DNA of 52,136 nt, taken from contig NZ_JADPUN010000128.1 of NCBI RefSeq assembly GCF_015690345.1, forward strand, positions 1-52,136. Direction: 5' to 3'. The translations under genes and the position numbers were made by a program. This document shows positions 32,093-50,201 of the stretch, one piece after another. The notes beneath the pieces are model-generated. The model did no database searches. It was given only the letters and a program-made list of their open reading frames with translations, and was not told the origin of the DNA. Within the stretch, counting starts at the first letter, position 1. Every line of letters starts with the position of its first letter. The DNA comes from Plantactinospora alkalitolerans (lineage in GTDB: Bacteria; Actinomycetota; Actinomycetes; Mycobacteriales; Micromonosporaceae).

Positions 32093-32121
32093 TTCCCCCA
32101 AATGACACGACGCCAACTAGT

Positions 32122-32138: not shown

Positions 32139-32195
32139 GTCGCTATGATCCTCGATATGATCGCAATTGATGTTTATCGATCAAGGGGGTCCGTC

Positions 32196-35289: not shown

Positions 35290-36855
35290 TCAGCGAGCAG
35301 GCCCGGACCGCCGTCGGACGTACCACCGGTCGCCCACCACCATGTCATCCACACCGCGCGCTTCGCAGTAGCTGACCAGGTCCGACATGGAGTTGATGAA
35401 CCCCAGGCCGTTGAAGTTCAGCGACGTGTTGCACAGGATGCCCACGCCTCGTTCCGCCGCGAACGCCGACAGCAGCTCGTGCAGCGCGGCGTTGTCCCGC
35501 CGGCTCACGGTCTGCACCCGCGCCGTGCCGTCGACATGGGTGACCGCCCCGAGGTCCGGCGAGACAACCCTCCGGAAATAGAGCATGTACGGGTCTTCGA
35601 AGTCCTCGTCGAACAGCTGACCAAGGTCCTCCACCCGGCAGCACGGCGCGATGGGACGGTAATCCTCGCGCTGCTTGATCTCATTGAGCCGGTCCTTGGT
35701 CTCGCGATGGAACGGTTCGGCCAGGAGCGAGCGGTTGCCCAACGCGCGGGGCCCGATCTCCCAGCGTCCCTGCACCCAGGCCACGACGCGCCGCGCCGAC
35801 AGGACCCGCGCCACCTCACCGGCCGAGTAGCGGCGGGCCTCCCACCGATGCTCGTCGGGCACGACATCCTCGTCGAACGGCAGCCCGCTGTAGACGCTCC
35901 AGTTGATCCGGTACTCCCCGGTCGTCGCCAGCAACGCGTCGATCGCGGTGCCGATGGCCGAGCCGGAGTCGTTCGGGCACGGCGGCACGAAGACCGAGGA
36001 GAAGTGGGACGTCTTCCGCCACAACCCGTTCCAGTCGCAGTTGAGGCCACATCCACCGGATATGCGCAACGGCGTTCCCGGCGGCAGTTCCTGCTCGGCC
36101 TGGCGCACGAAGCTGTCGAAGATGCGTCGGGTGACCAGCGCCGCGGCGGCCTTGGCCGCTGGGCTTTCGACTCCCACGTTGTACAGCGGCGAATCGCGGA
36201 ACTCTGCCTTGGGGACCGGGTAGAGGGTATCGAGCTTGAATATCTGGTCGACCACTTCGACGATCTCGGGATCGGCGTCGGCCGGATCGGCGTACGCGGC
36301 CAACGCCATGAGCTTTCCGCTGTCGCCCAACCGCGGCTCCGGGGCCCGGTCCGGGAAGGTGGGATCGGCCAGGCCGAAGATGAAGGCGTACCGGGCCCCG
36401 GGTTGGGACATGACCGGCACGGTCTTCACCACGCGACCACGACGGTCCACGAGGAAGTACGACCCCGCAGCGCCCTCCCAGACCAGCACCGTCTGGAGCG
36501 GATGGTCGGACTCCGGCGCCATGCCGAGTGCGTTCATGATGTGCGAACGCTCGTGCGACGACGAAAAGAACTGGACAGGCTTGCCGAAGAAGGTGCCGGA
36601 CTCCGACAACAGTTTATCGCCGAGATAGCCGGAACCGATGTCGCCGACACCCGGGTCGGGCTTGTTCCACCCACCCAGCGCGATGACGTCCGGAAGGCCG
36701 TCGCACCGCCGCGCCGCTTCCAGAAGGGTGGTTGGGGTCAGGCTCGAATAACGCTGAAAGGAGTCCTTCTCCGCCTCGAGCGAGAAAAGCAACTCGTTGT
36801 CCCGGAGGACGGCGATCCCACCGTCATGAGCGGGTTTCAACGCGAAAATCAACAT
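35290..36855 (-). CDS. NodU/CmcH-family O-carbamoyltransferase
   Basis: The protein has 521 residues and transfers carbamoyl from carbamoyl phosphate to a hydroxyl, as in tobramycin, cephamycin or Nod-factor tailoring. ATG at 36855 matches the family N-terminus (HDGGIAVLRDNELLFSLEAE). The Kae1-like domain has His10-Asp11 and the metal pair His101/His105 in SSHERSHIMNALGM. Where the family has an aspartate after the beta strand there is Glu127 in VLVWEGAAGSY. The YrdC-like second domain has the strongly conserved GRWEIGPRALGNRSLLAEP and KDRLNEIKQREDYRPIAPCC, and NTSLNFNG near the end. It lies next to the cyclitol operon on the opposite strand and 139 bp behind the HAD gene. It probably decorates the cluster's product. 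Confidence 0.88.
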   Translation of the reverse strand: MLIFALKPAHDGGIAVLRDNELLFSLEAEKDSFQRYSSLTPTTLLEAARRCDGLPDVIALGGWNKPDPGVGDIGSGYLGDKLLSESGTFFGKPVQFFSSSHERSHIMNALGMAPESDHPLQTVLVWEGAAGSYFLVDRRGRVVKTVPVMSQPGARYAFIFGLADPTFPDRAPEPRLGDSGKLMALAAYADPADADPEIVEVVDQIFKLDTLYPVPKAEFRDSPLYNVGVESPAAKAAAALVTRRIFDSFVRQAEQELPPGTPLRISGGCGLNCDWNGLWRKTSHFSSVFVPPCPNDSGSAIGTAIDALLATTGEYRINWSVYSGLPFDEDVVPDEHRWEARRYSAGEVARVLSARRVVAWVQGRWEIGPRALGNRSLLAEPFHRETKDRLNEIKQREDYRPIAPCCRVEDLGQLFDEDFEDPYMLYFRRVVSPDLGAVTHVDGTARVQTVSRRDNAALHELLSAFAAERGVGILCNTSLNFNGLGFINSMSDLVSYCEARGVDDMVVGDRWYVRRRSGPAR

Positions 36856-36993
36856 ACAGTGAAACCTGCCATCGAAGCCCCCGTTACACATCGACGCCGA
36901 ACACTTGTTTGGACCCTACCGTACATCGATGGATGTGGAGCGACTGCGGCGCATCCCGCATCCAACGCCTCGATATCGACGAAATCCGGACGT

Positions 36994-37623
36994 TCAGCCC
37001 GCCGAGCGGAAGCCCTGGATGATCTCGACGGCGTGCGCAAGGGTGGGTAGACACATGTCGGCCGCACCGAGCTCGGCCGGGTCGTGGGTGCTGGCTATCG
37101 CCAGCACCGTGCAGCCGGCTCGCTTCGCGGCGAGAATGCCGGCCGGGGCGTCCTCGACCGCCAGGCAGTCGGCCGCCGAGATGCCCAACCGCTCGGCGGC
37201 CATCAGGTAGCAGTCGGGGGACGGCTTACCGGCCGGTACCTCCTCGCCGTACACCTGCACCTGCGGTAGCGGCAGTCCGCACGATTCGAAGCTCAGCCGC
37301 ACCGACCACCGGTTGCCCGAGGTCACGATTGCCCATGGCCGGTCGTGCAGGCTCTCGAGCAGTACGCGGGCGGTCGGCGCGGGTCGGACCAGCTCGATCC
37401 GCTCGCGCATCAACCCGTCCAGTTCGGCGCACTCGGTGGCGACGTCCAACTGCGGCGCGACCCGGGACAGGAGGTCTTCGGTGCGGCGGCCGTGCATGAG
37501 GCCCAGGACGTGCGCCACGTCGAGCGAACGACGTCTCGCCCACGTGCCCCAGATGTCCTGGTAGATCTCCACCGTGTCCAACAGCACACCGTCCACGTCA
37601 AACAGTACGCCGGAGGTCGCCAC
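36994..37623 (-). CDS. HAD family sugar phosphatase (beta-phosphoglucomutase-like)
   Basis: The protein has 209 residues from GTG at 37623, with AAGGGCAGGGG upstream. All four HAD motifs are present: FDVDGVLLDT with nucleophile Asp9 and acid/base Asp11, TSGN (motif II), GKPSPDCY with the lysine (motif III), and VEDAPAGI (motif IV). The helical cap between motifs I and II is the small C1 type of phosphoglycolate phosphatase or beta-phosphoglucomutase. In cyclitol pathways a phosphatase removes phosphate from a C7-cyclitol intermediate, which fits its position divergent from the cyclase operon. The carbamoyltransferase gene follows on the same strand. The 139-bp gap between them holds no clear hairpin. 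Confidence 0.85.
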   Translation of the reverse strand: MATSGVLFDVDGVLLDTVEIYQDIWGTWARRRSLDVAHVLGLMHGRRTEDLLSRVAPQLDVATECAELDGLMRERIELVRPAPTARVLLESLHDRPWAIVTSGNRWSVRLSFESCGLPLPQVQVYGEEVPAGKPSPDCYLMAAERLGISAADCLAVEDAPAGILAAKRAGCTVLAIASTHDPAELGAADMCLPTLAHAVEIIQGFRSAG

Positions 37624-37664
37624 GGTGCCCCTGCCCTTCGATGCCGTCGACGGTCGCGCCGGCG

Positions 37665-37694
37665 CCTATACTTCGGGATCGGTCGATCTGTCAC
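37665..37694 (-). promoter_or_regulatory. Probable promoter of the HAD (and carbamoyltransferase) unit
   Basis: On the minus strand there is GTGACA (37689-37694), an 18-bp spacer and TATAGG (37665-37670), about 40 bp upstream of the HAD start. It lies back to back with the promoter of the cyclitol operon. Confidence 0.5.
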
Positions 37695-37698
37695 AAGG

Positions 37699-37726
37699 TT
37701 GCCAAGACTGATCTCAGGGTGATAAT
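37699..37726 (+). promoter_or_regulatory. Probable promoter of the eight-gene cyclitol operon
   Basis: TTGCCA (37699-37704), a 16-bp spacer and GATAAT (37721-37726) lie within an AT-rich patch that is rare in this GC-rich window. Transcription starting here would give an approximately 85-base leader before the MFS gene. Confidence 0.5.
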
Positions 37727-37742
37727 CAATTAACGATGGCCG

Positions 37743-37820
37743 ATGAATACGGGGGGCTCGACTCTGTCTGCTGTGGTTGCGTTACTGACTGACGAATCGA
37801 CCGCCTGGTCGATCCGGTGA
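37743..37820 (+). CDS. Possible 25-residue leader peptide with a TTA codon, coupled to the MFS gene
   Basis: An ATG at 37743 opens a 25-codon frame (MNTGGSTLSAVVALLTDEST then AWSIR) whose TGA at 37818-37820 overlaps the GTG start of the transporter (GTGA). The transporter start has no good ribosome-binding site of its own, so coupling through this leader is plausible. Codon 14 is TTA (37782-37784), a leucine codon that is rare in such genomes and often ties translation to the bldA tRNA. The leader's own ribosome-binding site is weak, so it could be a chance frame. Confidence 0.35.
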   Translation: MNTGGSTLSAVVALLTDESTAWSIR

Positions 37821-39037
37821 CCTCGGCGCAGGGTTCGCGGGCGCACATCGCAGTGGGTGCGGGCATATTCGTCGGGCTGGGGCTGCAGATCGGGGTGTGG
37901 TCGGTGCTGGTCGCCGACCTGGCCACCACGCTGCGGCTGAGCCCGGGCACGCTCGGCGCGGCACTGATCGCGTCGACCGCCGCCGGAATCGTGGCGATCA
38001 TCGTGGGCGGCTCCGTGGCAGACCGGATCGGGCGCCGACCGGTCGCGATCCTCGGCTTCGCGTCGGCCTGCCTGGCCTTCCTGCTGTTCGCCCGGATCGA
38101 GACCGTGACCGGGCTGATAGGCGTACTCATGATCTTCGGGATTGGCGGCAGCCTGATCGACATCTCGGCGAACGCCATCGGTGCGGACATCGAGCGCCAG
38201 CACGAGACCCAGGTCATGAACTGGCTGCACGTCGGCTACAACGTCGGACTGGCGCTGGGCGCCGGACTGACCGTGTTCGCATTCGTCCTGGACTGGTCGT
38301 ACCGGTCGATCTTCGTACTCCTGGCCGTGATTCTGGGCGCGTTCGCGCTGGCCATGACCCGGCTGCCGATGCCGGTCCCGATCGGCCGGGTCCGGGCCGG
38401 GCGAGCCGGCGGCGACGAAGGGCGCCTCGGCTACCGGGTGCTCGCCGCGCCGGCGCTGCTCCTGCTCACCGGCGCCGTGATCGCGGCCTATCTGATCGAC
38501 GGCTCGTTCAACAGCTTCCTCTCGCTCTATCTGCGGTCGGTGTTCTCGTCCGGCGCGGCCCTCGCCGCCAGCGGCGTCCTGGCCGTCGCGCTCGCCGGCA
38601 TCGCGGGCCGTCTGATCGGCGGTGGCGTGGTCCGTCGGGTCGGCCCGCGTCGCACGTTCCTGCTGGCCGCCGCGCTGACCCTGGTCGGCCTGGCCGCCGC
38701 GGTCGCCACCGAGAGCCCGCTGGTGACGCTGATCGGGCTGCTCCTGGTCGCGTTCGCGCTGGCACCGGTCGTGCCGACCGCACTGTCGGCGGTGGCCCGG
38801 GCGGCGCCGGGGAGCGCCGGACGCGCGGTGGGCGCGGTGGGCGCGGTGGGTTATGTCGCGCTCGTCGTCGGTCCGGCGCTGGTCGGAGCGCTGGCCGACC
38901 GGACCAGTCTGCGCTTCGCGATCGGCTCGCTGATGCTGGCCGCCGTCGCCATCGCGGCCGGAGGATCGATCGCCACCGGGACTCGGACCCACGTGGTGGA
39001 CACACCCGACGGGACGTTATCCGCAATGGACTGCTGA
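37817..39037 (+). CDS. Major facilitator superfamily transporter
   Basis: The protein has 406 residues and about 12 membrane helices. Motif A (GGSVADRIGRRPVAILGF) lies in the loop between helices 2 and 3, and a second copy-like segment GGGVVRRVGPRRTFLL lies in the C-terminal half, as in two-domain MFS proteins. The segment HVGYNVGLALGAGL is typical of the sugar-type fucose permease/YfkF-like branch. It is first in the plus-strand operon, 27 bp before the GH5 gene, and either exports the cyclitol product or imports a precursor glycoside. The GTG start is weak in ribosome-binding sequence. Confidence 0.85.
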   Translation: MTSAQGSRAHIAVGAGIFVGLGLQIGVWSVLVADLATTLRLSPGTLGAALIASTAAGIVAIIVGGSVADRIGRRPVAILGFASACLAFLLFARIETVTGLIGVLMIFGIGGSLIDISANAIGADIERQHETQVMNWLHVGYNVGLALGAGLTVFAFVLDWSYRSIFVLLAVILGAFALAMTRLPMPVPIGRVRAGRAGGDEGRLGYRVLAAPALLLLTGAVIAAYLIDGSFNSFLSLYLRSVFSSGAALAASGVLAVALAGIAGRLIGGGVVRRVGPRRTFLLAAALTLVGLAAAVATESPLVTLIGLLLVAFALAPVVPTALSAVARAAPGSAGRAVGAVGAVGYVALVVGPALVGALADRTSLRFAIGSLMLAAVAIAAGGSIATGTRTHVVDTPDGTLSAMDC

Positions 39038-39064
39038 GCTGCGAAGACAACGGGGAGATGCAAC

Positions 39065-40570
39065 ATGACGACCGAACAAGGCGAAAACATCCTGCGCGTC
39101 GATGGTGACCGATTCGTCAACGGGCGCGGCGAGGAGGTACGGCTGCGCGGCATCGGCCTGGCCGGCTGGCTCAACATGGAAAACTGGATGACCGGCTTTC
39201 CGGCGCACGAGCAGGGGCAGCGCGACGCCGTCCGGGACGTGCTCGGCCCGGAGCGGACGCGGTTCTTCTTCGACCGCTTCCTCGACCACTTCTTCACCGA
39301 GGCGGACGCGGCATTCATCGCGTCGCTGGGGCTGAACTCGGTCCGCATCCCGATCCACTACCGTCACCTGGAGAGCGACGCCCGTCCGTTCGAGATCATC
39401 GAGGACGGCTTCCACCACCTGGACCGGGCGATCGACCTGCTCGCCGCGCACGGCATCTACTCGATCATCGATCTGCACACGCTGCCCGGCTGGCAGAACC
39501 AGGACTGGCACTGCGACAACCCGACGCACACCGCGCAGTTCTGGCAGCACCGCCACTTCCAGGACCGCACCCTGCACCTGTGGCGGATCATCGCACAGCG
39601 CTACCGGCACAACGACTGGGTCGCCGGATACAACGCGCTCAACGAGCCGTCGGACCCGACCGGTCAACTGGTCGGCCCGTTCAGCCGGGAACTGGTCGAG
39701 GTCATCCGCGACGTCGATCCGAACCACATCATCTTCCTGGACGGCAACCGGTACGGCAACGACTTCGAGATGTTCGACGCGTCCATGCCGAACACGGTGT
39801 TCTCGGCCCACGACTACGCCCCGCCCGGCTACATGCCGGACGGCCAGTACCCGGGCGTCACCCACCTCACCCACGTCTGGGAACCGGTCGACGGCAAGAC
39901 CTACGCGTTCGGCGTGCTGCGCCGGACCGACTCGCGCGACCAGTATTTCGACCGCGAGGCGCTGCACCGGATGTTCGAGAAGCGCAGCGAGTTCATGCGC
40001 CGGACCGGCACACCGGTGTGGGTCGGCGAATTCAACGCCATCTTCACCGGCGACCCGCAGGTCGACGAGATGCGCCTCCGTCTGCTCGGCGACCAGTTCG
40101 AGCACTACGAGAAGACGAACTCCAGCTGGGCGTTCTGGCCGCTGAAGGACATCGGCCTGTGCGGCCCGCTGTCCGTCGCCCCGGAGAGTCCATGGATGCG
40201 CCGGATCGAGCCCGTGCTGCGGCGCAAGGCCAAGTTCGGGGTGGACCTGTGGGGTGGCACCCACGACGGGATCCGGCATGTGATGGACCCCCTGAAGCAG
40301 CTCTTCGCCACGGAGTTCCCGGACTACCAGCCGTACCCGTTCGGCGCCGAGTTCTTCGTCAACCGGCTGGTGCCGCAGATCCTGCTCGCCGAGGCGCTGC
40401 TCCCCGAGTTCGGCGAGGTCTTCCGGGGCATGGACGAGACCGCCATCGACGAGATGATGCAGTCGTTCCGGTTCGAGAACTGCCGTTCGCGGGAGCCGCT
40501 GGTCGAATTGATCCGCAAGACCACCGGCGCCGACACGAAGGACGCCGGCGAACCGGTGGCAACGCCGTGA
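39065..40570 (+). CDS. Cytosolic GH5 (cellulase-fold) glycoside hydrolase
   Basis: The protein has 501 residues with GGGAG upstream of ATG at 39065. GH5 barrel features are the start GxGLAGWLNMENWMTG, NSVRIPIHYRH, LHTLPGWQNQDWH, the acid/base Glu194 in YNALNEPSD, HDYAPPGY and the nucleophile Glu322 in VWVGEFNAIF. There is no signal peptide, which is unusual for a GH5 enzyme and suggests an intracellular role on a small glycoside. The C-terminal about 100 residues (HVMDPLKQLFATEF and onward) extend past the barrel. It is coupled to the cyclase gene by a 1-bp overlap (TGATG). It could process or activate a glycosylated intermediate, or cleave an imported one. Confidence 0.85.
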   Translation: MTTEQGENILRVDGDRFVNGRGEEVRLRGIGLAGWLNMENWMTGFPAHEQGQRDAVRDVLGPERTRFFFDRFLDHFFTEADAAFIASLGLNSVRIPIHYRHLESDARPFEIIEDGFHHLDRAIDLLAAHGIYSIIDLHTLPGWQNQDWHCDNPTHTAQFWQHRHFQDRTLHLWRIIAQRYRHNDWVAGYNALNEPSDPTGQLVGPFSRELVEVIRDVDPNHIIFLDGNRYGNDFEMFDASMPNTVFSAHDYAPPGYMPDGQYPGVTHLTHVWEPVDGKTYAFGVLRRTDSRDQYFDREALHRMFEKRSEFMRRTGTPVWVGEFNAIFTGDPQVDEMRLRLLGDQFEHYEKTNSSWAFWPLKDIGLCGPLSVAPESPWMRRIEPVLRRKAKFGVDLWGGTHDGIRHVMDPLKQLFATEFPDYQPYPFGAEFFVNRLVPQILLAEALLPEFGEVFRGMDETAIDEMMQSFRFENCRSREPLVELIRKTTGADTKDAGEPVATP

Positions 40571-42216
40571 TGGTCGCGTCGACGGGCCACAACACCGGTT
40601 CCAGCATCGAGGTCGGACGGATCGAGGCCCGGCTGGACTGCGAGGTCGAGGTCGAGGTCGTGCCCGGACTGTTCGACCCCGGCAGTACCGCGCTGCTGCG
40701 GCATCTGCGCGGGGCCCAGCGGCTGCTGGTGGTCGCCGACGCGGACCGCGCCGGCCCGCTCCGGGCCTACCTCGACCGGCAGGTGTGGCGCGGCCGGCTC
40801 GACCGGTACATCGAGGTGGACATCGCGACCCTCGACCGGCTGTCCCCGCTTGCGGCGGTGGAGCGGATCGCCGAGGAGGCGGCCGCGGCAGGCCTGGGTC
40901 GGCGCGACGCCTTCCTGAGCTATTGCGGCCCGGTCATGTCCGACTACGTGGCGATCACCGCTGCGTTGTTCCGCCGGCACACCCGGGCGGTCCGGCTCGT
41001 GACCGGCCCGTCCGGCACCGTGAGCCCCTGCCCGCGTACCGCGCTGCCGGACGCCGGGCTGACGGTGCGGCACCGGGAGGTCCGGGTGGTGGTGCCGGGG
41101 ACGGCACCCGGCGGAACGTCGCAGCGCGGCGTCATCGAACAGTCGTACCGGGTCGAGCTGGCGCCGTCGATCTTCACCGATCCCGCCGATCCGCTGCGTG
41201 CCTGGCTGCCCGAGGGCGCCAGGGTACTGGCCGTGGTGGATGCGTTCTCGCCGGAGGTGGTGGCCGACGTCCGCCGCTACTTCCACCGGCACTCCGTGGT
41301 GCCGGTGGTCAGCTCCGCGCACGCCAAGACGCTCAGCCAGGTCGGCGAGTTGCTGACGACCGCCCGGCGGCTGGGCCTGGGGCCGGACGACCGGATCGTG
41401 GCGGTGGGCGGCGGCACGCTGCTCGACCTGGTCGGCACGATGGCCCTGCTGTACCAGGGCGAGACGCCGTACGTGCGGGTGCCCACCACACTGGTCGGCC
41501 TGATCGACGCCGGCGTCGGGCTCAAGGTCGGGGTCGACGTGAACCAGCGGCGCAACCTACTGGGCGGCTACCAGCCACCGCTGGCCTGCCTCTGCGACAC
41601 GACCTTCCTACGGACGCTTCCACCGGCCGAGATCCGCTGCGGTATCGCCGAGGCCATCAAGATCGCAATGGTCGCCGACGGGCCTCTGCTCGACCTCCTG
41701 GAGGAACGTCACGACGACCTCTTCCAGCGGCCGGACGGTCCGGTGGCCGAGGAGATCGTCCGGCGGTCGATCGCCGCGATGATGCGGCAGTTGGCCGGGA
41801 ACCCGTACGAGAAGGAACTGCGGAGACTCCCCGACTTCGGCCACGAGTTCGGGCACCTGCTCGAGACCGCGTCCGGGTACGCGCTGCGGCACGGCGAGGC
41901 GGTCTCGATCGGCATGGCGCTCGCCGGCCATCTCGGCGTACAGACCGGCCGGCTGCCGGCCGCCGCGTACGAGCAGATGATGGGGATGTTGTTGCGCGTC
42001 GGGCTGCCGGTGTACAGCCCGCTCTGCCGGCCGGAGCAGTTGTGGCGCTGGCTCGGTGGCGCCATCTCGGCGCACAAGGGCGGCCTGCCCCATCTCGTCG
42101 TGCCGACCGGAATCGGCCAGGGCGGCTTCATCGACTCGATGACCGAGCTCAACCCCGACCTGCTCCGCCGGGCCTGCGCCGACCTCGCCCGCCGCCGCCC
42201 GGCGGTCGCGCCGTGA
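40570..42216 (+). CDS. Sugar-phosphate cyclase (dehydroquinate synthase/EEVS superfamily) with duplicated N-terminal Rossmann unit
   Basis: The protein has 548 residues, compared with about 360-410 for the family. The C-terminal about 350 residues are a complete cyclase: NAD loop VAVGGGTLLD (277-286), VRVPTTLVGLIDAGVGLKVG, the basic RRNLLGGYQPP loop (328-337), AEAIKIA with metal-ligand Glu361, FGHEFGH (423-429) and Arg-His-Gly-Glu with His441. Residues about 31-146 are a second, degenerate copy of the same Rossmann half: LFDP, LLVVADADR, AAGLGRRDAFLSYCGPVMSD, ALFRRHTRAVRLVTG. GGG is replaced by CGP in that copy. Such cyclases make the ring of C7-cyclitols (2-epi-5-epi-valiolone) or deoxy-inososes. 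The product here is not assignable by eye. Translation is coupled to both neighbours. Confidence 0.85.
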   Translation: MVASTGHNTGSSIEVGRIEARLDCEVEVEVVPGLFDPGSTALLRHLRGAQRLLVVADADRAGPLRAYLDRQVWRGRLDRYIEVDIATLDRLSPLAAVERIAEEAAAAGLGRRDAFLSYCGPVMSDYVAITAALFRRHTRAVRLVTGPSGTVSPCPRTALPDAGLTVRHREVRVVVPGTAPGGTSQRGVIEQSYRVELAPSIFTDPADPLRAWLPEGARVLAVVDAFSPEVVADVRRYFHRHSVVPVVSSAHAKTLSQVGELLTTARRLGLGPDDRIVAVGGGTLLDLVGTMALLYQGETPYVRVPTTLVGLIDAGVGLKVGVDVNQRRNLLGGYQPPLACLCDTTFLRTLPPAEIRCGIAEAIKIAMVADGPLLDLLEERHDDLFQRPDGPVAEEIVRRSIAAMMRQLAGNPYEKELRRLPDFGHEFGHLLETASGYALRHGEAVSIGMALAGHLGVQTGRLPAAAYEQMMGMLLRVGLPVYSPLCRPEQLWRWLGGAISAHKGGLPHLVVPTGIGQGGFIDSMTELNPDLLRRACADLARRRPAVAP

Positions 42217-44456
42217 CCGTGCCACGCCGCCACGTCGCCATCGTGGTCGACGTCGGTGGCACCGCCACGAGGCTGGCCCTCGCCGAGGACGGCCGGCTCA
42301 CCGACACGATCGTGCGGGTACCGACGCCGAGTCCGCGCATCGGCGTCGCCGACCCGGTCGGACAGTTGCTCGACCTGATCGCGGAGCAGAGCGACCGGCT
42401 GCGCGAGGCGCTGCCCGACCGGCACGTCGACGCGATCGGCGTGGCGTTCGGTGCGGTCGTCACCAACGCCGGGGTGGTGCGCAACGCGTCCACGCTGTGG
42501 CTGGCGCCGTCGACCGGTCTGGACGTCGCCGCCGCGCTGCGCGACCGGCTGCCGTGGGCACCGGTCACCGTGGTCAACGACGTGGCCGCGGCCCCCTGGC
42601 ACTACCGGGAGCTGGGACGGTTCCTGTACGCCACGGTCAGCACCGGCATCGCGATCAAGGCCTTCGACGCCGGCCTGCCCGGGGCGCGCAAGGTGCTGCT
42701 CGACCCGGAATGGCTCGGTGGCGAGTCGGGGCACACCATCGTGGATCCGACGGCCCTGGACGCGGTGCCCGGCGGGGCGGCCGCCGCCGTACGGCTGGGT
42801 CGGGCCGCGGCGGGTGGTGACCCGGACGCCCGGGCGGATCTTGATCGGCTCGGCCTGCCCTGGTGCGAGTGCGGCGCGGTCGGTGACCTGTGCGCGTACG
42901 CCAGCGGGCCGGGCACCATCCGCGTGGCGGCCGCCGAGGCCCGGCGGCTCCCGGAGTCGTTCGCCGGCTCGGTCCTCGCCGAGCTGACCGGATCGGACCC
43001 CGACCGGATCGACGGTGCGGCGCTGGCGCGGGCCGCCGCCCGTGGCGACGCGTTCACCGCGACCGTCCTGCACCGGGTGACCCGGCCGCTGGCGGCCCGG
43101 CTGTTGCAGCTCTGCGCGGACCTGGGCCTGGACCGGGCGGTCATCGCCGGTGGCTTCGCGCACGGGGTCGGCGCGCCGTGGTTCGACGCGCTGCGGGCCA
43201 ACGTGGACGAACTCATGGTCGATGCCGGTTGGTTCACCGGCTGGACGGCAGAGCAACGCGCCGGCCTGCTCGTCCGTCCGCCGGACACCGGCGACGCGCC
43301 GCTCGGCGGTATGGCCGCGCTGCTGGCCGAGGGCCACCGGCGGTACCTCAGCCTGGTGAAGCCGGTGGGCGATGGAGGGCTCGTCGTCCACGAGCGCGAG
43401 GTGCCCGGCTGCGGGCGGGAGCAGTTCCAGTTGCGCATGCGGTACGCCGGAATCTGCGGCACCGATCTGCGGATCCTGCGCGGCGATGTCGGGTGCGAGC
43501 CCGAGATCCCGGGTCACGAATGCGTGGCCGAGGTGGTCGCGGTCGGTGATTCGATCACCGGCCTGACGGTCGGCCAGGTGGTCACCCTCAACCCGAACAA
43601 CCCGTTGGATGACAGCGACAAGCTGGGGCACAACCGTCCAGGCACATTCACCCAGCTGTTGACGCTGGACCACGGCGTCCTGAGTCGGGGCCAGGTCGTC
43701 GACGTACCGGAGATCGCGGGACCGGAGTGGGTGCTGGTCGAGCCGTTGGCCGCGGCGTTGCGGGCCAACCGGGCCACAACGGAGTTCGTGCCGGGCGAGC
43801 GGGTGCTGGTGGTCGGTGGCGGGCTCTCCGGTCTCATGCTCGCCGGCCTGGCCCGGCTGCGCGGCGCGGCGACCGTGCTGCTGGCCAGCCGCACGCCGGC
43901 CACCGTGGAGCGCGCCGTACAGCTGGGATTCTGTTCCCCGGAGCACGGCCTGCCGTTGAACGACGAGCTGGGAAGCGCCGTCTTGGCCGCGACCGGCGGG
44001 TTCGGCGTCGATGCCGTGTACGTGGCCGTGGGGTCGAACGCCGGCACCGCGACCGTTGCCACGCTCTGGCCGGCGCTGGCCAAGACCGCCGCGGTCAACC
44101 TGTACGGCGGATTCCCGGCCGATTCCCGACTGCCCGTCGGTGATGGTGACGTGATCGCTGTCGGTCCGTTGCGCTCCGCCGCGGCCCACCAGTGGGTGGA
44201 CAATCCGGCCGGTGGCAAGGTGGTGGTCCTCGGCAACCGCGGTGGCCGCCGCGAACATCTGCTGGCCGCGGTCGAACTGTTCCGTGGCGCCGGGTCCGAG
44301 CTGGGCCTGGATCGTCTGGTGACCCACATCGTCTCGCTGCCGGCCGCGCCCAGGGTGGCGGCCGAGCTGGCCCGCCACGGCACCGTCGACGGCCGGCCGG
44401 CGCTCCGCGTGGTGATCGATCCCTGGCTGCCCGGGACGGTGGTGCGGGTGTGCTGA
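42213..44456 (+). CDS. ROK-family kinase fused to zinc-type (MDR) alcohol dehydrogenase
   Basis: The protein has 747 residues in one uninterrupted frame from GTG at 42213 (GTGA overlap with the cyclase stop). Residues 1 to about 378 are a ROK kinase: phosphate motif VVDVGGTATRLAL (11-23), catalytic Asp123 in VVNDVAAA, and a variant zinc motif CECGAVGDLCAYASG (218-232). Residues about 390-747 are a medium-chain dehydrogenase: Cys415 in GICGTD, His435-Glu436 in GHE, Glu510 in LVEPLA as catalytic-zinc ligands, and NAD loop VVGGGLSG (533-540). The four-cysteine structural zinc loop is missing and replaced by a loop NPNNPLDDSDKLG. In acarbose/validamycin pathways the kinase (AcbM/ValC) and dehydrogenase (AcbL-type) are separate proteins. 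Here they are joined. Confidence 0.88.
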   Translation: MTVPRRHVAIVVDVGGTATRLALAEDGRLTDTIVRVPTPSPRIGVADPVGQLLDLIAEQSDRLREALPDRHVDAIGVAFGAVVTNAGVVRNASTLWLAPSTGLDVAAALRDRLPWAPVTVVNDVAAAPWHYRELGRFLYATVSTGIAIKAFDAGLPGARKVLLDPEWLGGESGHTIVDPTALDAVPGGAAAAVRLGRAAAGGDPDARADLDRLGLPWCECGAVGDLCAYASGPGTIRVAAAEARRLPESFAGSVLAELTGSDPDRIDGAALARAAARGDAFTATVLHRVTRPLAARLLQLCADLGLDRAVIAGGFAHGVGAPWFDALRANVDELMVDAGWFTGWTAEQRAGLLVRPPDTGDAPLGGMAALLAEGHRRYLSLVKPVGDGGLVVHEREVPGCGREQFQLRMRYAGICGTDLRILRGDVGCEPEIPGHECVAEVVAVGDSITGLTVGQVVTLNPNNPLDDSDKLGHNRPGTFTQLLTLDHGVLSRGQVVDVPEIAGPEWVLVEPLAAALRANRATTEFVPGERVLVVGGGLSGLMLAGLARLRGAATVLLASRTPATVERAVQLGFCSPEHGLPLNDELGSAVLAATGGFGVDAVYVAVGSNAGTATVATLWPALAKTAAVNLYGGFPADSRLPVGDGDVIAVGPLRSAAAHQWVDNPAGGKVVVLGNRGGRREHLLAAVELFRGAGSELGLDRLVTHIVSLPAAPRVAAELARHGTVDGRPALRVVIDPWLPGTVVRVC

Positions 44457-45037
44457 GCGATTCGAGCCCGGACGCGTTGCTGGCCACGTTCCGCGACGCC
44501 GCCGCCGGTGGGCGTGGCGGCGCGGCCGGCGAGGTCGCGCGGTTGGCCACCGAGGGCGGTACGCCCCGGCTGGGTTGGCTGGATCCGCCCGCCTGGCCGT
44601 CGGTCGCCGAGCTGCTGGCGGGGTACGCCGTCGCGGCGGACGGCCGGCTGCTGCTGATCGGCACCGGAGGCTGGGCGTTCGGCGCCCGGGCGGTGCGGGA
44701 GATCGACGGATCTCGACTGGACGTCCTGGACGCGCTCGATCCGGATGCGCTGCACCGCGCGGTCAATGGACCCGCCGGCCCACCCGACCTGGCAGTGGCG
44801 GTGTCCGAGTCGGGGACCACGCTGGAGACGCGACTGCTCGCCGACGCGGCTCGCGACCGGTTCGGCGTCGATGTCCGGTGGCTCACCGGGCCGCAGCTGA
44901 CCGGCCAGGTGGCGTTGTTCGCGGCGCCGTTGAGCGTGCTGTTCCTGCTGTGCGCCCAGGCGGGCATCGCGGTGGCCACCAGCCGGTCCCTGCGGCCGCG
45001 CAGCGCCCTGCTCCGGCCGATCGGAGCCGAGCGATGA
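44450..45037 (+). CDS. Mini phosphoglucose-isomerase-like SIS-domain protein
   Basis: The protein has 195 residues from GTG at 44450, overlapping the fusion gene by 7 bp. It shows only the first sugar-isomerase (SIS) half of a phosphoglucose isomerase: LLLIGTGGWAFGARAVRE (68-83), the following LDVLDALDPDALHRAV (90-105), and the phosphate-binding motif AVSESGTTLETRLLA (117-131). A region resembling the next PGI helices follows (TGPQLTGQVALFAAPLSVL). A full PGI has 430-550 residues. The catalytic Glu, His and C-terminal Lys of PGI would lie in the missing part, so it is unlikely to be a classical PGI. The ORF is fully coupled on both sides and well coded, not a decaying fragment. It could be a sugar-phosphate-binding subunit. 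Confidence 0.75.
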   Translation: MLSDSSPDALLATFRDAAAGGRGGAAGEVARLATEGGTPRLGWLDPPAWPSVAELLAGYAVAADGRLLLIGTGGWAFGARAVREIDGSRLDVLDALDPDALHRAVNGPAGPPDLAVAVSESGTTLETRLLADAARDRFGVDVRWLTGPQLTGQVALFAAPLSVLFLLCAQAGIAVATSRSLRPRSALLRPIGAER

Positions 45038-46431
45038 GCCTGGCGGTCGCCCACCGCATCCTCGGCCTCGATCCGGGCACCCGGCCGCAGTTCGAGCCGC
45101 TGCGGTCGTGCCGTCCGGGCGTGACCGTGCTGATCCCGACGCACAGCGACCGGGCGCACGACGGTGGCGGCACCGGCCGGCTGGACACCCTGGCCCGCTG
45201 CCTCGAGTCGCTGGCGGGGCAGCCCCGCCACGCCGGTCCGCCACTGTCCGTCGTGATCGTCGACGGTGGACTGACCGACGACGACGCGGACCGGATCCGC
45301 GCCGCGCTGTCGACGACCGGCCTGCCGCACGAGCTGGTGCCGGCGCCGGTCGCCGCCAGGTCCGCCGCCGCCACCCGCAATGCCGGCCTGGCCTGGCTTG
45401 CCGAGCAGCCGGACGGATCACCGCTGGTTCGCCGGCACCTGCTCTTTCTGGACGACGACACCGCGCTCGCCCCCGGCGGCCCGGCCGCGTTGGCGGACGT
45501 GCTCGACCGGGATCCGGGTGCGGTGGCCGTCTGCCCGAAGATCGTCACCGTCGCCTCGGTCACCGACTGGCTCGACCGGGAGCCGCCGGCGCCGGTCGCC
45601 CCGGTCAGCAGTCGGGTGCTTCCCGGCAGTCTGCACGACGGGCGGTACGACCTGCTCACCGTCACGTCGCACGGCAGCCTGGTGGCCGGCCGGGTGGTCG
45701 GCCTTCTGGTCCGGGCCGACCTGGTGCTCGGCTGGCTGCGCCACGGCGGCCGGCTGTTCTACCCCGGCACCCCGCGCGGTAGCAGCGAGGACATGCTGGC
45801 GATGGCGACACTGTCCCGGCTGGGCCAACTACGTACGGCGCCCGACGTGCGGGTGGCCGATCTGGTCCGGCGTACCCCGGTGGACACCCGGCGACAGCAG
45901 TTGGCCTGGGGGTACGACCACGGCTGGCTGCCCGGCGAACTCGGCGCGGCCGGCCTGCTCGATCCGGGGCTGCACGTCCTGACCTGGGACGAGGCGACCG
46001 GGTGGTGGCAGCATCACCGCCCCGACCCGCACCGGTACGGGTACCTGGTCAATCCGCAGGAGCTCGCGGTGCTCGGTGCGATGCTGGCCGCGACTGCCCG
46101 GGACGACACGACGGTGCGGGCACTCTTCGGGGTGTCCGCCGCCGAGTTGGCCGCGGCCACGGCGGCGCTGACCGGGCTGCTCATCCGACTACCCGACCTG
46201 CTACGGAGTGCGGAGGTCAGCCACCGGCCCGACCTGCCGCCGCTCGTGCCGCGAGGTTTCGAGACGTTGCGGGAGGGACTCGACGGGCTGCTCGCGCACC
46301 TGGCCGGCAACGCCCTGGCCAGCCTGACCCACGGGTTGGCCGACGACGGCCTGCCCGCCCGGTTCCTGTACGGCCTCCGCCAGGGCGCGGCCGGCGCAAT
46401 CACACCTCGCGGAAACGGTACGGTGGTATGA
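45034..46431 (+). CDS. GT-A fold (GT2-like) glycosyltransferase
   Basis: The protein has 465 residues from ATG at 45034 (ATGA overlap upstream). The nucleotide-sugar fold begins at VTVLIPTHSDR (31-40), continues with PLSVVIVDGGLTDDDADRI, and has the metal-binding aspartates in LFLDDDTAL (Asp140-142). A later acidic segment GSSEDMLAMATLSRLG could supply the catalytic base. The C-terminal about 150 residues are a helical extension (LAVLGAMLAATARDDTTVRA...) without clear homology. No membrane segment is seen, so it probably glycosylates a soluble cyclitol in the cytoplasm. It resembles the family of the validamycin glucosyltransferase only in fold. Confidence 0.8.
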   Translation: MSLAVAHRILGLDPGTRPQFEPLRSCRPGVTVLIPTHSDRAHDGGGTGRLDTLARCLESLAGQPRHAGPPLSVVIVDGGLTDDDADRIRAALSTTGLPHELVPAPVAARSAAATRNAGLAWLAEQPDGSPLVRRHLLFLDDDTALAPGGPAALADVLDRDPGAVAVCPKIVTVASVTDWLDREPPAPVAPVSSRVLPGSLHDGRYDLLTVTSHGSLVAGRVVGLLVRADLVLGWLRHGGRLFYPGTPRGSSEDMLAMATLSRLGQLRTAPDVRVADLVRRTPVDTRRQQLAWGYDHGWLPGELGAAGLLDPGLHVLTWDEATGWWQHHRPDPHRYGYLVNPQELAVLGAMLAATARDDTTVRALFGVSAAELAAATAALTGLLIRLPDLLRSAEVSHRPDLPPLVPRGFETLREGLDGLLAHLAGNALASLTHGLADDGLPARFLYGLRQGAAGAITPRGNGTVV

Positions 46432-47444
46432 GCATTCGGATCGGCCTGGCCGGGGCCGGCTTCCTGAGCAGGGCCGCGCTGCTGCCAGCCCTCGACGGCC
46501 TGGACGAATTCGAGGTCGCCGCGGTTCTCGACCCGGATCCCGACGTCCGGCGGGTGGTCGCCGGCGTCGTGCCCGGCGCCGTGGTGACCGGCGACGAGGA
46601 GGCGTTCTTCGGCGTAGACCTGGACGCGGTGCACGTGGCCACGCCGAACCACCTGCACGCGTCGATCGCCTGCCGGGCACTGGCCGACAACCTCGCGGTC
46701 GTGGTGGACAAACCCCTGGCCGGTACGGTGGCGGACGCGTTGGAGATCCACCGGAACGCGGAGAAGTCCACGGCGCCGCTGCTGGTCGGGTACATGTCCC
46801 GGTACAACGCGAACAACGAGGCCGTCCGGCGGCTGGTGGCCGACGGCGCGATCGGCGTACCGCTGGCGATGAGTGCCACGCACCTGGGGCACCGGACCGG
46901 CGACTGGCGCAACTACCGCGCCTACTCCGGCCTCGGCTGCGCGGCAGACCTGGCCATCTATCCGCTGCTGACGGCGGGTGACGTCTTCGACTCGCCGGCC
47001 ACCGGGTGCCAGGCGGTCGCCTATCCGTCGGGCGATCCGGAGCTGACCGACATCTATCTGGACGCCACCGTGTGGTTCGGCGACCGGCGCCTGCACGTCG
47101 AGTCGTCGTTCACCGAGGCGCCGGAGGTCGGGGTGTCCCGATACAGCGTGGTCGGCAGCGGGGGCGTTCTCGTCGCCGTCGACACGTGGGCGATGAACGG
47201 CGACGGCAGCGTGCTGCTCTGCGACGACCACGGCCGTCGTCTGGTCACGGTGCCGTCGGTCGACCCGTACGCCCGGCAGTACCGGCTGCTCGCCGAGTGC
47301 ATGGCGGGCCGACCGGTGCCGGCCGAGGTCGGTTCGGCCCGGGGCCTGCGGGACGTCGCTGTGCTGCACCAGTTGGACCGCAGTGCCGCCACCGGCGGAC
47401 AGCGGCTCGCCATACCTGACCTGGAGCCGCCATGGACCTCGTGA
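46428..47444 (+). CDS. Gfo/Idh/MocA family oxidoreductase in the cyclitol operon
   Basis: The protein has 338 residues from ATG at 46428 (ATGA overlap). Rossmann start RIGLAGAGFLSRAALLPALDG. The catalytic-lysine segment is VVVDKPLAGTVADALEIH, with DKP in place of EKP. Further on are YMSRYNANNEAVRRLVADGAIG and a C-terminal domain with an aspartate-rich active face. Members oxidise inositol, cyclitol or sugar hydroxyls with NAD(P). In this operon it is a likely candidate for redox adjustment of the carbocycle. The next gene starts 13 bp before its stop. Confidence 0.85.
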   Translation: MSIRIGLAGAGFLSRAALLPALDGLDEFEVAAVLDPDPDVRRVVAGVVPGAVVTGDEEAFFGVDLDAVHVATPNHLHASIACRALADNLAVVVDKPLAGTVADALEIHRNAEKSTAPLLVGYMSRYNANNEAVRRLVADGAIGVPLAMSATHLGHRTGDWRNYRAYSGLGCAADLAIYPLLTAGDVFDSPATGCQAVAYPSGDPELTDIYLDATVWFGDRRLHVESSFTEAPEVGVSRYSVVGSGGVLVAVDTWAMNGDGSVLLCDDHGRRLVTVPSVDPYARQYRLLAECMAGRPVPAEVGSARGLRDVAVLHQLDRSAATGGQRLAIPDLEPPWTS

Positions 47445-48295
47445 TGCACAGCTACTCGCTGCGCGACTACCCGCTGGAGCATGTGTTCGCGGTCGCCGCG
47501 CACTACGGCTTCGACAGCATCGAGGTGTCCACCTGGCACCTCGACCTGCGCGGGAACCCCGACGTGGTGCCGGGCGAGGTGGCCAGGGCCGTCGCGCTGG
47601 GCGACAGGTACGGGGTGCGGGTGCACTGCGTCGGGTACGAGGGCGACTTCACCGTGGACGACCCGGATCGGCACGCGCGGTCCGTCACGCTCGTCGGCCG
47701 GATCGTCGAGGCCTGCGGCGGCCACGGCATCGAGTTGGTGAACGGCTGCGGCGGATGGTTGCAGGGCGACCCGGACGACTGGAGGAACAACGGCAGCGTC
47801 CGCGCCGACGACGGGCACTACGCCCGAACCGGCGACGCCTACCGGACGCTCGGCGCGATCGGTGCCCGCGAGGGCGTGCGGGTGGCCGTCGAGGTGCATC
47901 CGAACACCGTCCACGACACCGTGACGACGACCGCGCGACTGCTCGACCTGGTCGACCATCCCGCGGTGATCGCCACCGTCGACCCGGCGAACTCCGCGCT
48001 GCTCACTCCTGAGGACCGGAATCCGGCGGTGCTCGACCGGCTCGGCAATCGGGTGGGCTATTTCCACATCAAGAACTACGTTCCGGCCGGCGGACGGGCC
48101 GACTTCAGTGTGGACACCGCGCACGGCGTGATAGACAACCTGCGCTGGCTGGAGAAGTTGGCCGAGCACGGCGGCGTGCCGGCCATGGCGCTGGAGTACT
48201 GCGGCGTGGGCGACCCGCACCCACGGTTGCAGGCCGCCCTCCGCTACGTCCGCGAGTGCGAGGCGTTGCTCGATGTGGTCGCCGCCCGCCGGTGA
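47432..48295 (+). CDS. Sugar phosphate isomerase/epimerase-like (xylose-isomerase TIM barrel)
   Basis: The protein has 287 residues from ATG at 47432 (13-bp overlap). It has the AP-endonuclease-2/xylose-isomerase fold: FDSIEVSTWHLDLRG, GIELVNGCGGWLQGD, the metal Glu in VAVEVHPNTVHD, TVDPANSALLT, VGYFHIKNYVPAGG with His, and MALEYCGVGDPHPRL with the last Glu. These supply the usual acidic and histidine metal ligands. Members epimerise ketoses or inososes (IolE, IolI, ketose 3-epimerases). AcbO/ValD-type steps in C7-cyclitol pathways are epimerisations, so this is the natural epimerase of the operon. It is the last gene, and its end overlaps the convergent GT2 gene by 52 bp. Confidence 0.82.
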   Translation: MDLVMHSYSLRDYPLEHVFAVAAHYGFDSIEVSTWHLDLRGNPDVVPGEVARAVALGDRYGVRVHCVGYEGDFTVDDPDRHARSVTLVGRIVEACGGHGIELVNGCGGWLQGDPDDWRNNGSVRADDGHYARTGDAYRTLGAIGAREGVRVAVEVHPNTVHDTVTTTARLLDLVDHPAVIATVDPANSALLTPEDRNPAVLDRLGNRVGYFHIKNYVPAGGRADFSVDTAHGVIDNLRWLEKLAEHGGVPAMALEYCGVGDPHPRLQAALRYVRECEALLDVVAARR

Positions 48296-49188
48296 CGGGC
48301 CAGCGACCGCAGCAGCAGCCACGCGGGACGCGGCTCGAACGGTCGAGCCAGCCACCAGCGCCACAGGTGGAACCGGGCCTCGCCGACGCGGCCGTGCCGG
48401 AGCAGCATGTCACCGAACAGGCGGTCGAAATCCAGGCCCCGGCGGCGGATCGCCGACGGATGCCTGCGGCCGTGGTGCTTCCACACCGCGTACGCGCCCA
48501 GCATCAGCTCGTCGAAGTCGGCGGTGATCTGTTCCTCGGTCGCCACGTCTCCGGCGCTGGACGCCCGGTATTCGGCCAGCGGCTCGGGATTGGGCACGCA
48601 GTGGTGGCCGGCCTCCACGAACCGCCACATGAACTCCTGGTCGTCGCCCAACCGGAATGCCTCGTCGAACCGGATCCGGCGGGCCACCTCGGTCCGGACC
48701 ACTGTGAACGTCGGCTGGATCCACGATCCGGCGCACATCGCCTCGATCGAGGTCGGCATCGTGAAGTTCGGGTTGTCGAACAGGTTGTGCCACGAGCCGT
48801 CCTGATCCTGGCGGCGCCCGTTGCACAGCACCATGTCCGCGCCGGGGTTGTCGGCGAGCACCGCGAGCTGGCTGCGCAGGTACGTCGGCTCCCACCAGTC
48901 GTCGCTGTCCAGCAGGGCGGTCCACTCGGCGCGGGCGACGTCGATGCCGGTGTTCCGGGCGGCCGGCGGGCCGCCGTTGGCCCGGGTGATCACCCGCAGC
49001 CGCGGCTCGGTGCCGTAGCGGCGGCCGAGTTCGGCGACCGTGTCGTCGACGGATCCGTCGTCCACCACGATGACCTCGAACTCGCAATCCACCTGCGCCA
49101 GCACGCTGTCGATCGCGATCGGCAACACGGCCAGGCGGTTGTACGTCGTGATCACTACGGAAACGGCCGGGGCAGCGGGCATCGACAT
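48244..49188 (-). CDS. GT2 family glycosyltransferase
   Basis: The protein has 314 residues and is a classical GT-A enzyme. Its N-terminal signature is VSVVITTYNRLAVLPIAIDS, followed by VIVVDDGSVDDTVAELGRRY, NGGPPAARNTGIDVARAEW, the DXD-type LLDSDDWWEP and a second acidic motif LGDDQEFMWRFVEAG (ED-type base region). There is no membrane helix. The C-terminal region is rich in W and R (HLWRWWLARPFEPRPAWLL). It is on the opposite strand to the operon but between it and the aldo/keto reductase, so it is probably a second sugar transferase of the same product. ATG at 49188 follows AACAAGGG. Confidence 0.88.
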   Translation of the reverse strand: MSMPAAPAVSVVITTYNRLAVLPIAIDSVLAQVDCEFEVIVVDDGSVDDTVAELGRRYGTEPRLRVITRANGGPPAARNTGIDVARAEWTALLDSDDWWEPTYLRSQLAVLADNPGADMVLCNGRRQDQDGSWHNLFDNPNFTMPTSIEAMCAGSWIQPTFTVVRTEVARRIRFDEAFRLGDDQEFMWRFVEAGHHCVPNPEPLAEYRASSAGDVATEEQITADFDELMLGAYAVWKHHGRRHPSAIRRRGLDFDRLFGDMLLRHGRVGEARFHLWRWWLARPFEPRPAWLLLRSLARHRRAATTSSNASHSRT

Positions 49189-49247
49189 ATCCCTTGTTCT
49201 CGATCAATTGGTCAAATCGTACAGTAGAGAAAGAGAGAGGTCCTGCC
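49189..49247. promoter_or_regulatory. Short divergent promoter region with a CAATTG-centred palindrome
   Basis: The 59-bp gap between the GT2 and aldo/keto reductase genes contains GATCAATTGGTC (49202-49213), a 10-of-12 palindrome. TACGAT on the minus strand (49216-49221) and TACAGT on the plus strand (49220-49225) are -10-like. GAGAGAGAGG precedes the reductase start. The palindrome may be an operator, but no matching copy was found at the main operon promoter. Confidence 0.4.
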
Positions 49248-50201
49248 ATGGCTGGCTCGGTACGGTACTCACCGCTCATTCTCGGAGGCTTGTTCGGCAT
49301 CGAGGAGGAGGCCGTATCCCGCTCCCGTCTGGACGCGTACGCCGGAGGCGGCGGCCGGACGATCGACACCGCGCCGATGTACGCCGACGGCCTCGGCGAG
49401 GAGGTCATCGGACGGTGGCTGGCGGATCAGCGGCCGGCGGTACCCCGGGAGGATTGGCAGATCATCTCGAAGGTCTGCCATCCGGAGGACGGGCGGTCCC
49501 GAGTCCGACCGGACGTGATCCGGGCCGAGGTCGCCGGGTCGCTGCGCCGCCTCCGAACCGACTATCTGGACGCCGTGCTGTTGCATCGCGACGACCCGGA
49601 CGTACCGGTGAACGCGATCACCGACACGCTGCTCGAACTCCATGACCGGGGCACGGTCCGGCAGCTCGGGGTGTCGAACTGGAGCGCCGGACGACTCGCG
49701 GACTTCGCCGACGCGGTGGCGCCGCTGAAGCCGATCGCCAGCTACCAGTTCAGCCTCGCGGTGCCCACCGGGCCGATCTGGCCGGACACCCGGCACGTGA
49801 CCGCGGACGTGCTCGAGGTGGTCGTCGAACGCGGGCTCTGCCTACAGGGGTGGACCGCGCTGGCCCGGGGCTGGTTCGCCGGGCGGAACCCGGACGACCG
49901 CACCGGAATCGACCGGAAGTTGCTGCTCCTGTTCGATACGCCGGCCAACCGAGCCGCCCGCGAGGTGGTTTTCTCCATTGCCCGGAAACGCGATGTGGCA
50001 CCGATCGCCGTCGCATTGAGTTGGATGCTCTCGGCGAGCCTGGATGTACACGCGGTACTCGCCCCACGATCGGCCGAGCAGTTGCGGGAATGCTTCGGCG
50101 GCCTGGAGTTCACATTGACGTCGGCTGAATGGGCCGAGCTGTCCAGGGCGGCCGGCGTGACCTCGGTGCCGGGCCCGGCGTCCGAGCGTGTCAGGGGCTG
50201 A
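49248..50201 (+). CDS. Aldo/keto reductase
   Basis: The protein has 317 residues. The start ATG at 49248 has GAGAGAGAGG 8 bp upstream. An ATG further up overlaps the divergent gene. The catalytic tetrad is in place: Asp40 and Tyr45 in TIDTAPMYADG, Lys75 in IISKVC, and His113 in VLLHRDDPD. The usual QFSLAV strand and C-terminal cofactor loop (VLAPRSAEQLRECFGG) follow. AKRs reduce keto groups of sugars and cyclitols with NADPH, and the enzyme may finish the cyclitol or make a sugar for the glycosyltransferases. It is monocistronic and at the far edge of the cluster. Confidence 0.88.
   Translation: MAGSVRYSPLILGGLFGIEEEAVSRSRLDAYAGGGGRTIDTAPMYADGLGEEVIGRWLADQRPAVPREDWQIISKVCHPEDGRSRVRPDVIRAEVAGSLRRLRTDYLDAVLLHRDDPDVPVNAITDTLLELHDRGTVRQLGVSNWSAGRLADFADAVAPLKPIASYQFSLAVPTGPIWPDTRHVTADVLEVVVERGLCLQGWTALARGWFAGRNPDDRTGIDRKLLLLFDTPANRAAREVVFSIARKRDVAPIAVALSWMLSASLDVHAVLAPRSAEQLRECFGGLEFTLTSAEWAELSRAAGVTSVPGPASERVRG

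Follow-up and report, generated by a model that had tools for sequence, protein, structure and literature searches.

What do the genes at positions 35290-50201 of a 52,136-nucleotide stretch of the Plantactinospora alkalitolerans genome (contig NZ_JADPUN010000128.1, assembly GCF_015690345.1; hereafter the window) make? The original prediction had read them as a new cyclitol cluster yielding a glycosylated, carbamoylated C7 cyclitol, with a kinase, a dehydrogenase and an epimerase paralleling AcbM, AcbL and AcbO of acarbose biosynthesis. We find a cluster that is real, conserved, apparently uncharacterized and of cyclitol type; text searches of the open-licence literature returned no characterized cluster with this gene set, in keeping with the novelty that had been claimed. 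Its gene content, a fused kinase-dehydrogenase, membership in a cyclase clade, conserved synteny and, within the set of sequences compared, a nearest kinship to AcbM and AcbL are all directly observed. Judged from the genes, these loci probably represent an uncharacterized family of C7-cyclitol-type pathways that would start from sedoheptulose 7-phosphate, and on balance we favor the view that the operon in the window makes a C7-cyclitol (carbasugar).

The cyclase and the fused kinase-dehydrogenase

The original prediction would have fallen if the cyclase were simply the 3-dehydroquinate synthase (DHQS, AroB) of the shikimate pathway. The protein scores 201.8 bits against the NCBIfam AroB model TIGR01357, below its cut-off of 305, the genome has a separate canonical aroB elsewhere (C339, with the motif NYGHTLGH), and the cyclase separates in a tree from two AroB rows. 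We therefore rejected a plain DHQS, and the sequence comparisons support a non-AroB sugar-phosphate cyclase. The tree has 30 rows: nine 2-epi-5-epi-valiolone synthases (EEVS; ValA, AcbC and seven more), three single-domain relatives, one desmethyl-4-deoxygadusol synthase (DDGS), the two AroB, and a clade of 15 that contains our cyclase and lies outside EEVS plus DDGS (support 98/96). These 15 come from distinct loci: the window; a second locus in the same genome (C154); five in other Plantactinospora, namely L004 (P. endophytica), L005 (P. mayteni), L030, L032 and L034; Micromonospora KC606 (L003); Actinoallomurus (L006); three others in the same family (L029, L031, L033); Streptomyces lincolnensis L4 (L002); Nostoc calcicola (L007); and a metagenome-assembled genome (L001).

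The solved structure nearest to the window cyclase is the EEVS ValA (PDB 4P53), both by sequence (7.1e-56) and by fold (7.4e-24, from a model with a pLDDT of 76.6). The cyclase keeps the GGG motif and the Glu/His/His metal ligands. Its NAD-binding half occurs twice, a degenerate duplicate making up the N-terminal part of the protein (hhalign probability 97.8, E 9e-13). All 15 clade rows share GLKVGV, DFGHEFGH, RHGEAV and an HK pair. All 15 also have Asp and His at the positions equivalent to ValA D281 and H360, which we take to be diagnostic of EEVS and where DDGS has Ala and Thr, so the cyclase may work like an EEVS. The window protein is the shortest as called, at 548 residues versus 595-774 in the other 14 loci.

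Directly downstream, a kinase of the ROK family and a medium-chain dehydrogenase/reductase (MDR) are encoded as one protein. The complete fusion is present in 13 of the 15 loci, including Nostoc; of the other two, L001 is truncated by a contig end and C154 is without it. By BLAST, the ROK half matches AcbM (32% identity, 8e-18) and the MDR half matches AcbL (29%, 9e-16). In quick trees, 13 ROKs of this genome stand apart from a set made up of the 13 fused ROKs and five from other cyclitol-type clusters (Shimodaira-Hasegawa-like approximate likelihood-ratio test, SH-aLRT, 95), which places the kinase half with AcbM-type 7-kinases, closer to AcbM than to general ROK kinases. The fused MDRs join the AcbL group (SH-aLRT 99). 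They also share a further trait with it: an NPxx...GHN stretch replaces the structural-zinc lobe in all 13 fused MDRs and in the three AcbL-group MDRs, and is absent from 15 aligned MDRs of this genome (of 34 matching ADH_N) and from L063_9. By grouping and by this stretch, the dehydrogenase half belongs with AcbL-type dehydratases/dehydrogenases. In the acarbose-type cluster L056, the separate kinase and dehydrogenase genes come in the same order as the two fused domains. Since AcbM and AcbL are the closest relatives of the two halves, that part of the proposed parallel holds. The functions of AcbC, AcbM, AcbO and AcbL are taken here from portions of PMC9200736 and PMC7081202.

Gene content and conservation of the cluster

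Codon-usage gene calling, by the script that also gave the protein lengths quoted for relatives, and Pfam matches show that the interval runs exactly from the carbamoyltransferase to the aldo/keto reductase:

35290-36891, minus strand: NodU-type carbamoyltransferase, accessory (Pfam Carbam_trans_C 1.4e-53, Carbam_trans_N 1.7e-19)
36994-37623, minus strand: HAD phosphatase, kept in type A clusters (Pfam HAD_2; 50-52% identity to L003, L006, L029, L031 and L033)
37817-39037, plus strand: MFS transporter, first gene of the operon (Pfam MFS_1)
39065-40570, plus strand: GH5 glycoside hydrolase, conserved core (Pfam Cellulase 1.5e-30; NEP and GEF motifs; 53-70% to relatives)
40570-42216, plus strand: sugar-phosphate cyclase, 548 residues (degenerate extra NAD-binding half at about 17-142, complete catalytic domain at about 184-542)
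42213-44456, plus strand: fused ROK (AcbM-like) kinase and MDR (AcbL-like) dehydrogenase, 747 residues (no stop between the domains)
44450-45037, plus strand: phosphoglucose-isomerase-like protein with a large internal deletion, 195 residues (alignment; family profile to phosphoglucose isomerases 7e-8; fold of the L005 relative)
45034-46431, plus strand: family 2 glycosyltransferase, kept in type A clusters (Pfam 2.1e-6; 43-49% to relatives)
46428-47444, plus strand: Gfo/Idh/MocA oxidoreductase, conserved core (49-58% to relatives)
47432-48295, plus strand: xylose-isomerase-like TIM-barrel protein, conserved core (Pfam AP_endonuc_2 2.7e-25; best solved relative AsbF, 4.6e-9)
48244-49188, minus strand: second family 2 glycosyltransferase, accessory (Pfam 3e-30; a 28% relative in L030 only among related loci)
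49194-50201, plus strand: aldo/keto reductase, accessory (Pfam 2.6e-48; start at 49194 by codon usage, or 49248)

The eight genes from the MFS transporter to the TIM-barrel protein (37817-48295) look like a single operon: 27 nucleotides separate the first two, and the next six junctions are overlaps of 1-13 nucleotides. The phosphatase and carbamoyltransferase genes lie on the opposite strand, 102 nucleotides apart, as does the second glycosyltransferase gene, which overlaps the TIM-barrel gene by 52 nucleotides. Every function named in the original prediction is thus present. The kinase and zinc-type dehydrogenase, listed there as two proteins, are in fact a single reading frame, and the list omitted GH5, the internally deleted isomerase-like protein and a decayed paralogous locus.

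The order GH5-cyclase-fusion-isomerase recurs in Plantactinospora, Micromonospora, Actinoallomurus and two further genera at about 38-70% protein identity, which is more than chance. GH5 adjoins the cyclase in 11 of the 15 loci (only 180 residues are called in L031); it is a remnant at C154 and was unmatched in the stretches of L001, L002 and L007. We did not use its best solved match, 9ku5 (GE32), to assign a function, as the GE32 described among Geobacillus endoglucanases may be another protein. The isomerase-like gene is found in 14 of 15 loci, counting the window's deleted copy (L001 is cut off), and the full-length L005 relative has a predicted fold like phosphoglucose isomerase, a remote match with a best TM of about 0.5. 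In the window copy, the first part and the C-terminal tail align and the middle is gone, leaving 195 residues against 379-559 in relatives. The Gfo/Idh and TIM-barrel genes occur in 12 loci; contig ends truncate L001 and L002, and the L007 stretch has neither.

The related clusters fall into two types. Type A (L003, L006, L029, L031, L033) has the HAD phosphatase, an ABC-2-type transporter pair (by Pfam on L006, by BLAST for the others) and a family 2 glycosyltransferase between the isomerase-like and Gfo/Idh genes; type B, in Plantactinospora, has none of these there and ends with a second Gfo/Idh gene. The window mixes the two, with the phosphatase and glycosyltransferase of type A and no ABC pair, and with GH5, ROK, Gfo/Idh and TIM-barrel proteins nearer type B in identity (for example, 68-70% versus 53-57% for GH5).

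The genome has two such loci. Among its genus-mates, five of six have a type B cluster with shared flanks (L004, L005, L030, L032, L034). The corresponding place in our genome is C154 (L012; G000 C154 26000-44000). Compared with L032, C154 lacks the fusion and a piece of a histidine kinase, and only about 30 codons of its GH5 remain; it keeps the cyclase and the full-length isomerase-like, Gfo/Idh and TIM-barrel genes. An assembly artefact is argued against because C154 is one contig free of N runs, its adjoining stretches match L032 at 88-92%, and a 30-residue GH5 remnant persists. The window supplies the only fusion and the only GH5 (at E<=1e-10) found in its genome. The cyclophilin adjoining the window cluster is 88-92% identical in five of six genus-mates and 54% in the sixth, and no cluster lies beside it in three genus-mates read out on the matching side. 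Insertion of the window cluster is likely, but no empty site was mapped, since the genes around the cyclophilin in these genus-mates are likewise unlike those of the window.

Across the family, 13 of 354 genomes match the cyclase at 1e-60, or 10 after removing those with single-domain proteins outside the clade (G136, G338, G287). The fusion was found in one of 396 genomes of a phylum sample at 1e-50, namely this one. A single contig scan gave seven loci, among them the ones with fusions in Nostoc, S. lincolnensis and Actinoallomurus, so the phylum sample understates the spread. The Nostoc locus (9110-17710) places the cyclase-fusion-isomerase set beside a PhyH dioxygenase and a glucokinase. 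That of S. lincolnensis, cut by a contig end, has GH31, MFS, cytidylyltransferase-like and NAD epimerase genes (4990-8540 and 15389-16494), which suggests a nucleotide-activated cyclitol. For S. lincolnensis, PMC10717218 describes a predicted C7-cyclitol cluster with the AcbL/SalM-like gene SLCG_5041, which may or may not be the L002 locus.

A ValA query at 1e-65 caught 25 of the 354 family genomes, some through other cyclase clades. Three loci (L035, L036, L037) carry a third clade with GHTFGP and RR at the His site, which may be a further distinct cyclase group. Pfam, applied to L035, shows a starch-synthase-like glycosyltransferase there; L036 and L037 have proteins of 715 and 699 residues. 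A class III aminotransferase is present in L035 and L036, and a cupin in L035.

A candidate pathway and its alternatives

From homology, we propose that the cyclase would close sedoheptulose 7-phosphate to a valiolone-type ketone, whose 7-hydroxyl the ROK half would phosphorylate, as AcbM does, and that the MDR half would turn the 7-phosphate into an enone or another redox product in the manner of AcbL. The Gfo/Idh enzyme and the TIM-barrel protein could adjust the ketone and stereochemistry, and the HAD enzyme could take off the phosphate. The family 2 glycosyltransferase would attach a sugar that GH5 may trim or transfer, with the MFS protein as a putative exporter. In this strain only, the carbamoyltransferase, second glycosyltransferase and aldo/keto reductase may decorate the product.

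Two of the predicted features fare less well. The TIM-barrel protein and AcbO are both in Pfam PF01261, yet the two gave no BLAST match at 1e-4 and an hhalign probability of 1.8 on shallow alignments; with no specific relationship seen beyond the Pfam family, its identification as an AcbO-type 2-epimerase is not supported. The nearest solved relative of the TIM-barrel protein is AsbF, a dehydratase of a cyclic hydroxy-ketone, which speaks for the proposed route. As for carbamoylation, the carbamoyltransferase gene is there, and a search at 1e-8 finds no counterpart of its protein among those called in the related loci, so its link to the product is one of proximity and a carbamoylated product is weakly indicated. 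Relatives of this protein occur in seven of 354 family genomes, ours included; four of the remaining six were read out, and none has further genes of the window cluster in the vicinity. The aldo/keto reductase likewise has no match at 1e-8 in related loci, and the MFS transporter has only distant relatives in other loci (26-31%), including one next to the S. lincolnensis cluster. The interpretation as a whole thus stands on its non-AroB cyclase and AcbM/AcbL-like enzymes, loses the AcbO parallel and keeps carbamoylation as a weak element.

The absence of an in-cluster aminotransferase, noted in the original prediction, was confirmed for the genes called in 35290-50201; by that measure the cluster does not belong with the C7N aminocyclitols. 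The nearest, a class III enzyme resembling glutamate-1-semialdehyde aminomutase (29290-30645, plus strand), lies two BNR-repeat genes away and is 27-38% identical to those of L035-L037 over 124-379 residues; we judged it separate. Of the two intervening sialidase-like genes (30812-34505, plus strand), one encodes F5/F8 type C and laminin-G-like domains. Adjoining the aminotransferase on its other side is a long gene set of catabolic appearance (12745-29179, minus strand): an ABC peptide-type importer, an IclR regulator, amidohydrolases, histidinol dehydrogenase-like and D-serine dehydratase-like proteins, two Gfo/Idh and an FAA hydrolase.

Several observations weigh against the proposed C7-cyclitol pathway. 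All 15 clade rows have GHEFGH where ValA has GHSFSP, none has KNRLG, and CG stands in place of the EEVS NG; within K-N-x-L/M-G, the window cyclase has Arg where the other 14 members have Lys. Together with the branching outside EEVS plus DDGS, these motifs led us to reject EEVS by strict membership, and the clade's position means that substrate or product may differ from those of EEVS. Both the ROK tree and the MDR tree were built by a quick method, with long branches flagged in the former, and AcbM's group as sister to the fused ROKs has support of 90, below the starred level. One EEVS locus, L063, has an MDR that falls among general MDRs, and the kinship therefore does not extend to every MDR of a cyclitol cluster. 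Neither an AcbN-type short-chain dehydrogenase/reductase (SDR) nor AcbO was matched in BLAST of the window cluster against L056 at 1e-4, and the isomerase-like gene is internally deleted.

This deletion, the shortened N-terminal region of the cyclase and its Lys-to-Arg change raise the possibility, which we hold tentatively, that the window locus is decaying or only partly working and that the product needs genes from both loci of the genome. The genes kept at C154, with the fusion and nearly all of GH5 lost there, would fit such a division. The window's reading frames, however, are all open and tightly packed, and short cyclases (595 residues) also occur in S. lincolnensis L4 and L001, the nearest neighbors of the window protein in the cyclase tree.

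A somewhat doubtful alternative is that only the neighborhood is new, the clade being known 2-epi-valiolone synthases (EVS) or another described group of sugar-phosphate cyclases. In the portion of PMC5133447 available to us, confirmed EVS fall where DHQS would otherwise be expected, and the DHQS-like GHxxGH seen here would fit. The tree holds no EVS, aminoDHQS, 2-deoxy-scyllo-inosose synthase (DOIS) or EboD sequences, so the clade is set apart only from the groups in it; the diagnostic Asp and His and the separation from AroB argue against a plain DHQS, not against EVS.

We consider it unlikely that the cyclase takes another sugar phosphate, such as a hexose phosphate or a sedoheptulose 7-phosphate isomer that the phosphoglucose-isomerase-like enzyme would supply, to give a non-valiolone cyclitol. 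The company that the isomerase-like gene keeps with the cyclase in nearly every locus would suit this route, as would its weak match to NCBIfam sedoheptulose-7-phosphate isomerase (7.7e-4, window copy) and the scyllo-inosose and inositol dehydrogenases among the NCBIfam profiles matching the dehydrogenases. Against it, the search for relatives of the fusion leads most closely to AcbM and AcbL, pointing to a C7 cyclitol with a 7-hydroxyl, and most of the window's isomerase-like gene is gone from an otherwise open operon. A salvage or catabolic operon is highly improbable: ROK kinases, Gfo/Idh enzymes, TIM-barrel isomerases and GH5 are common in catabolic operons, but this cluster adds a cyclase, two glycosyltransferases and a carbamoyltransferase, shows no importer of the solute-binding kind in the gene calls for 35290-50201, and has type A relatives with an ABC-2-type transporter pair.

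On a more speculative and rather uncertain view, the loci might constitute a conserved, as yet uncharacterized class of cyclitol pathways of Actinomycetota and a cyanobacterium. It would combine a new cyclase subfamily bearing a degenerate second NAD-binding half with a 7-kinase and a dehydratase fused so as to channel a reactive cyclitol phosphate. In our strain, the pathway would be split over the native locus, now decayed, and another that contributes carbamoyl tailoring, and would yield a new glycosidase-inhibitor-like compound. C7 cyclitols have given acarbose and validamycin (PMC8599487 and PMC9200736, in the parts consulted). A cyclase clade with its own motifs beside a kinase-dehydrogenase fusion could mark a product family overlooked by EEVS searches with strict cut-offs: at the chosen 1e-65, the ValA query catches two of the 10 clade-holding family genomes (G253, G306), and a looser cut-off would catch more.

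Comparison with known systems

Among the closest systems are the relatives themselves, uncharacterized as they are. They share with the window the cyclase clade, the fusion and the isomerase-like gene, and mostly GH5, Gfo/Idh and TIM-barrel genes; unlike it, none has the carbamoyltransferase, and their isomerase-like proteins are not shortened.

Locus L056, found through the ValA query, we take to be the acarbose (acb) cluster of Actinoplanes sp. SE50/110, judging by eye from the order of its genes and the first residues of their proteins; its acb gene names are our reading too. Both have a cyclase of the same superfamily, an adjacent ROK kinase and MDR related to the fusion, and a PF01261 TIM-barrel protein. 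In L056, however, kinase and dehydrogenase are separate genes and the cyclase is an EEVS with GHTFSP, whereas the window has a fusion and GHEFGH. The AcbN SDR, the AcbR nucleotidyltransferase and the large AcbI/AcbS glycosyltransferases of L056 have no BLAST match to the window cluster at 1e-4, and no GH5 or carbamoyltransferase, both present in the window, was matched in the 19.5-kb L056 stretch. ValA of validamycin biosynthesis, the best solved match of the cyclase, is 36% identical over the fold alignment and differs in active-site motifs; the match covers residues 188-530, with the extra NAD-binding half outside.

Two further systems are compared by product or by description, from the parts of the sources consulted. 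The ebo cluster (EboD, EboE) likewise joins a non-AroB sugar-phosphate cyclase to other accessory enzymes; its gene set differs, with the UbiA-superfamily EboC and the putative phosphodiesterase EboF. Streptol beta-glucoside, from leaf-nodule Burkholderia (PMC8599487, PMC10131216), bears on the predicted product: it is a known nitrogen-free glycosylated C7 cyclitol, so a compound of that kind would have a precedent and would not itself be new.

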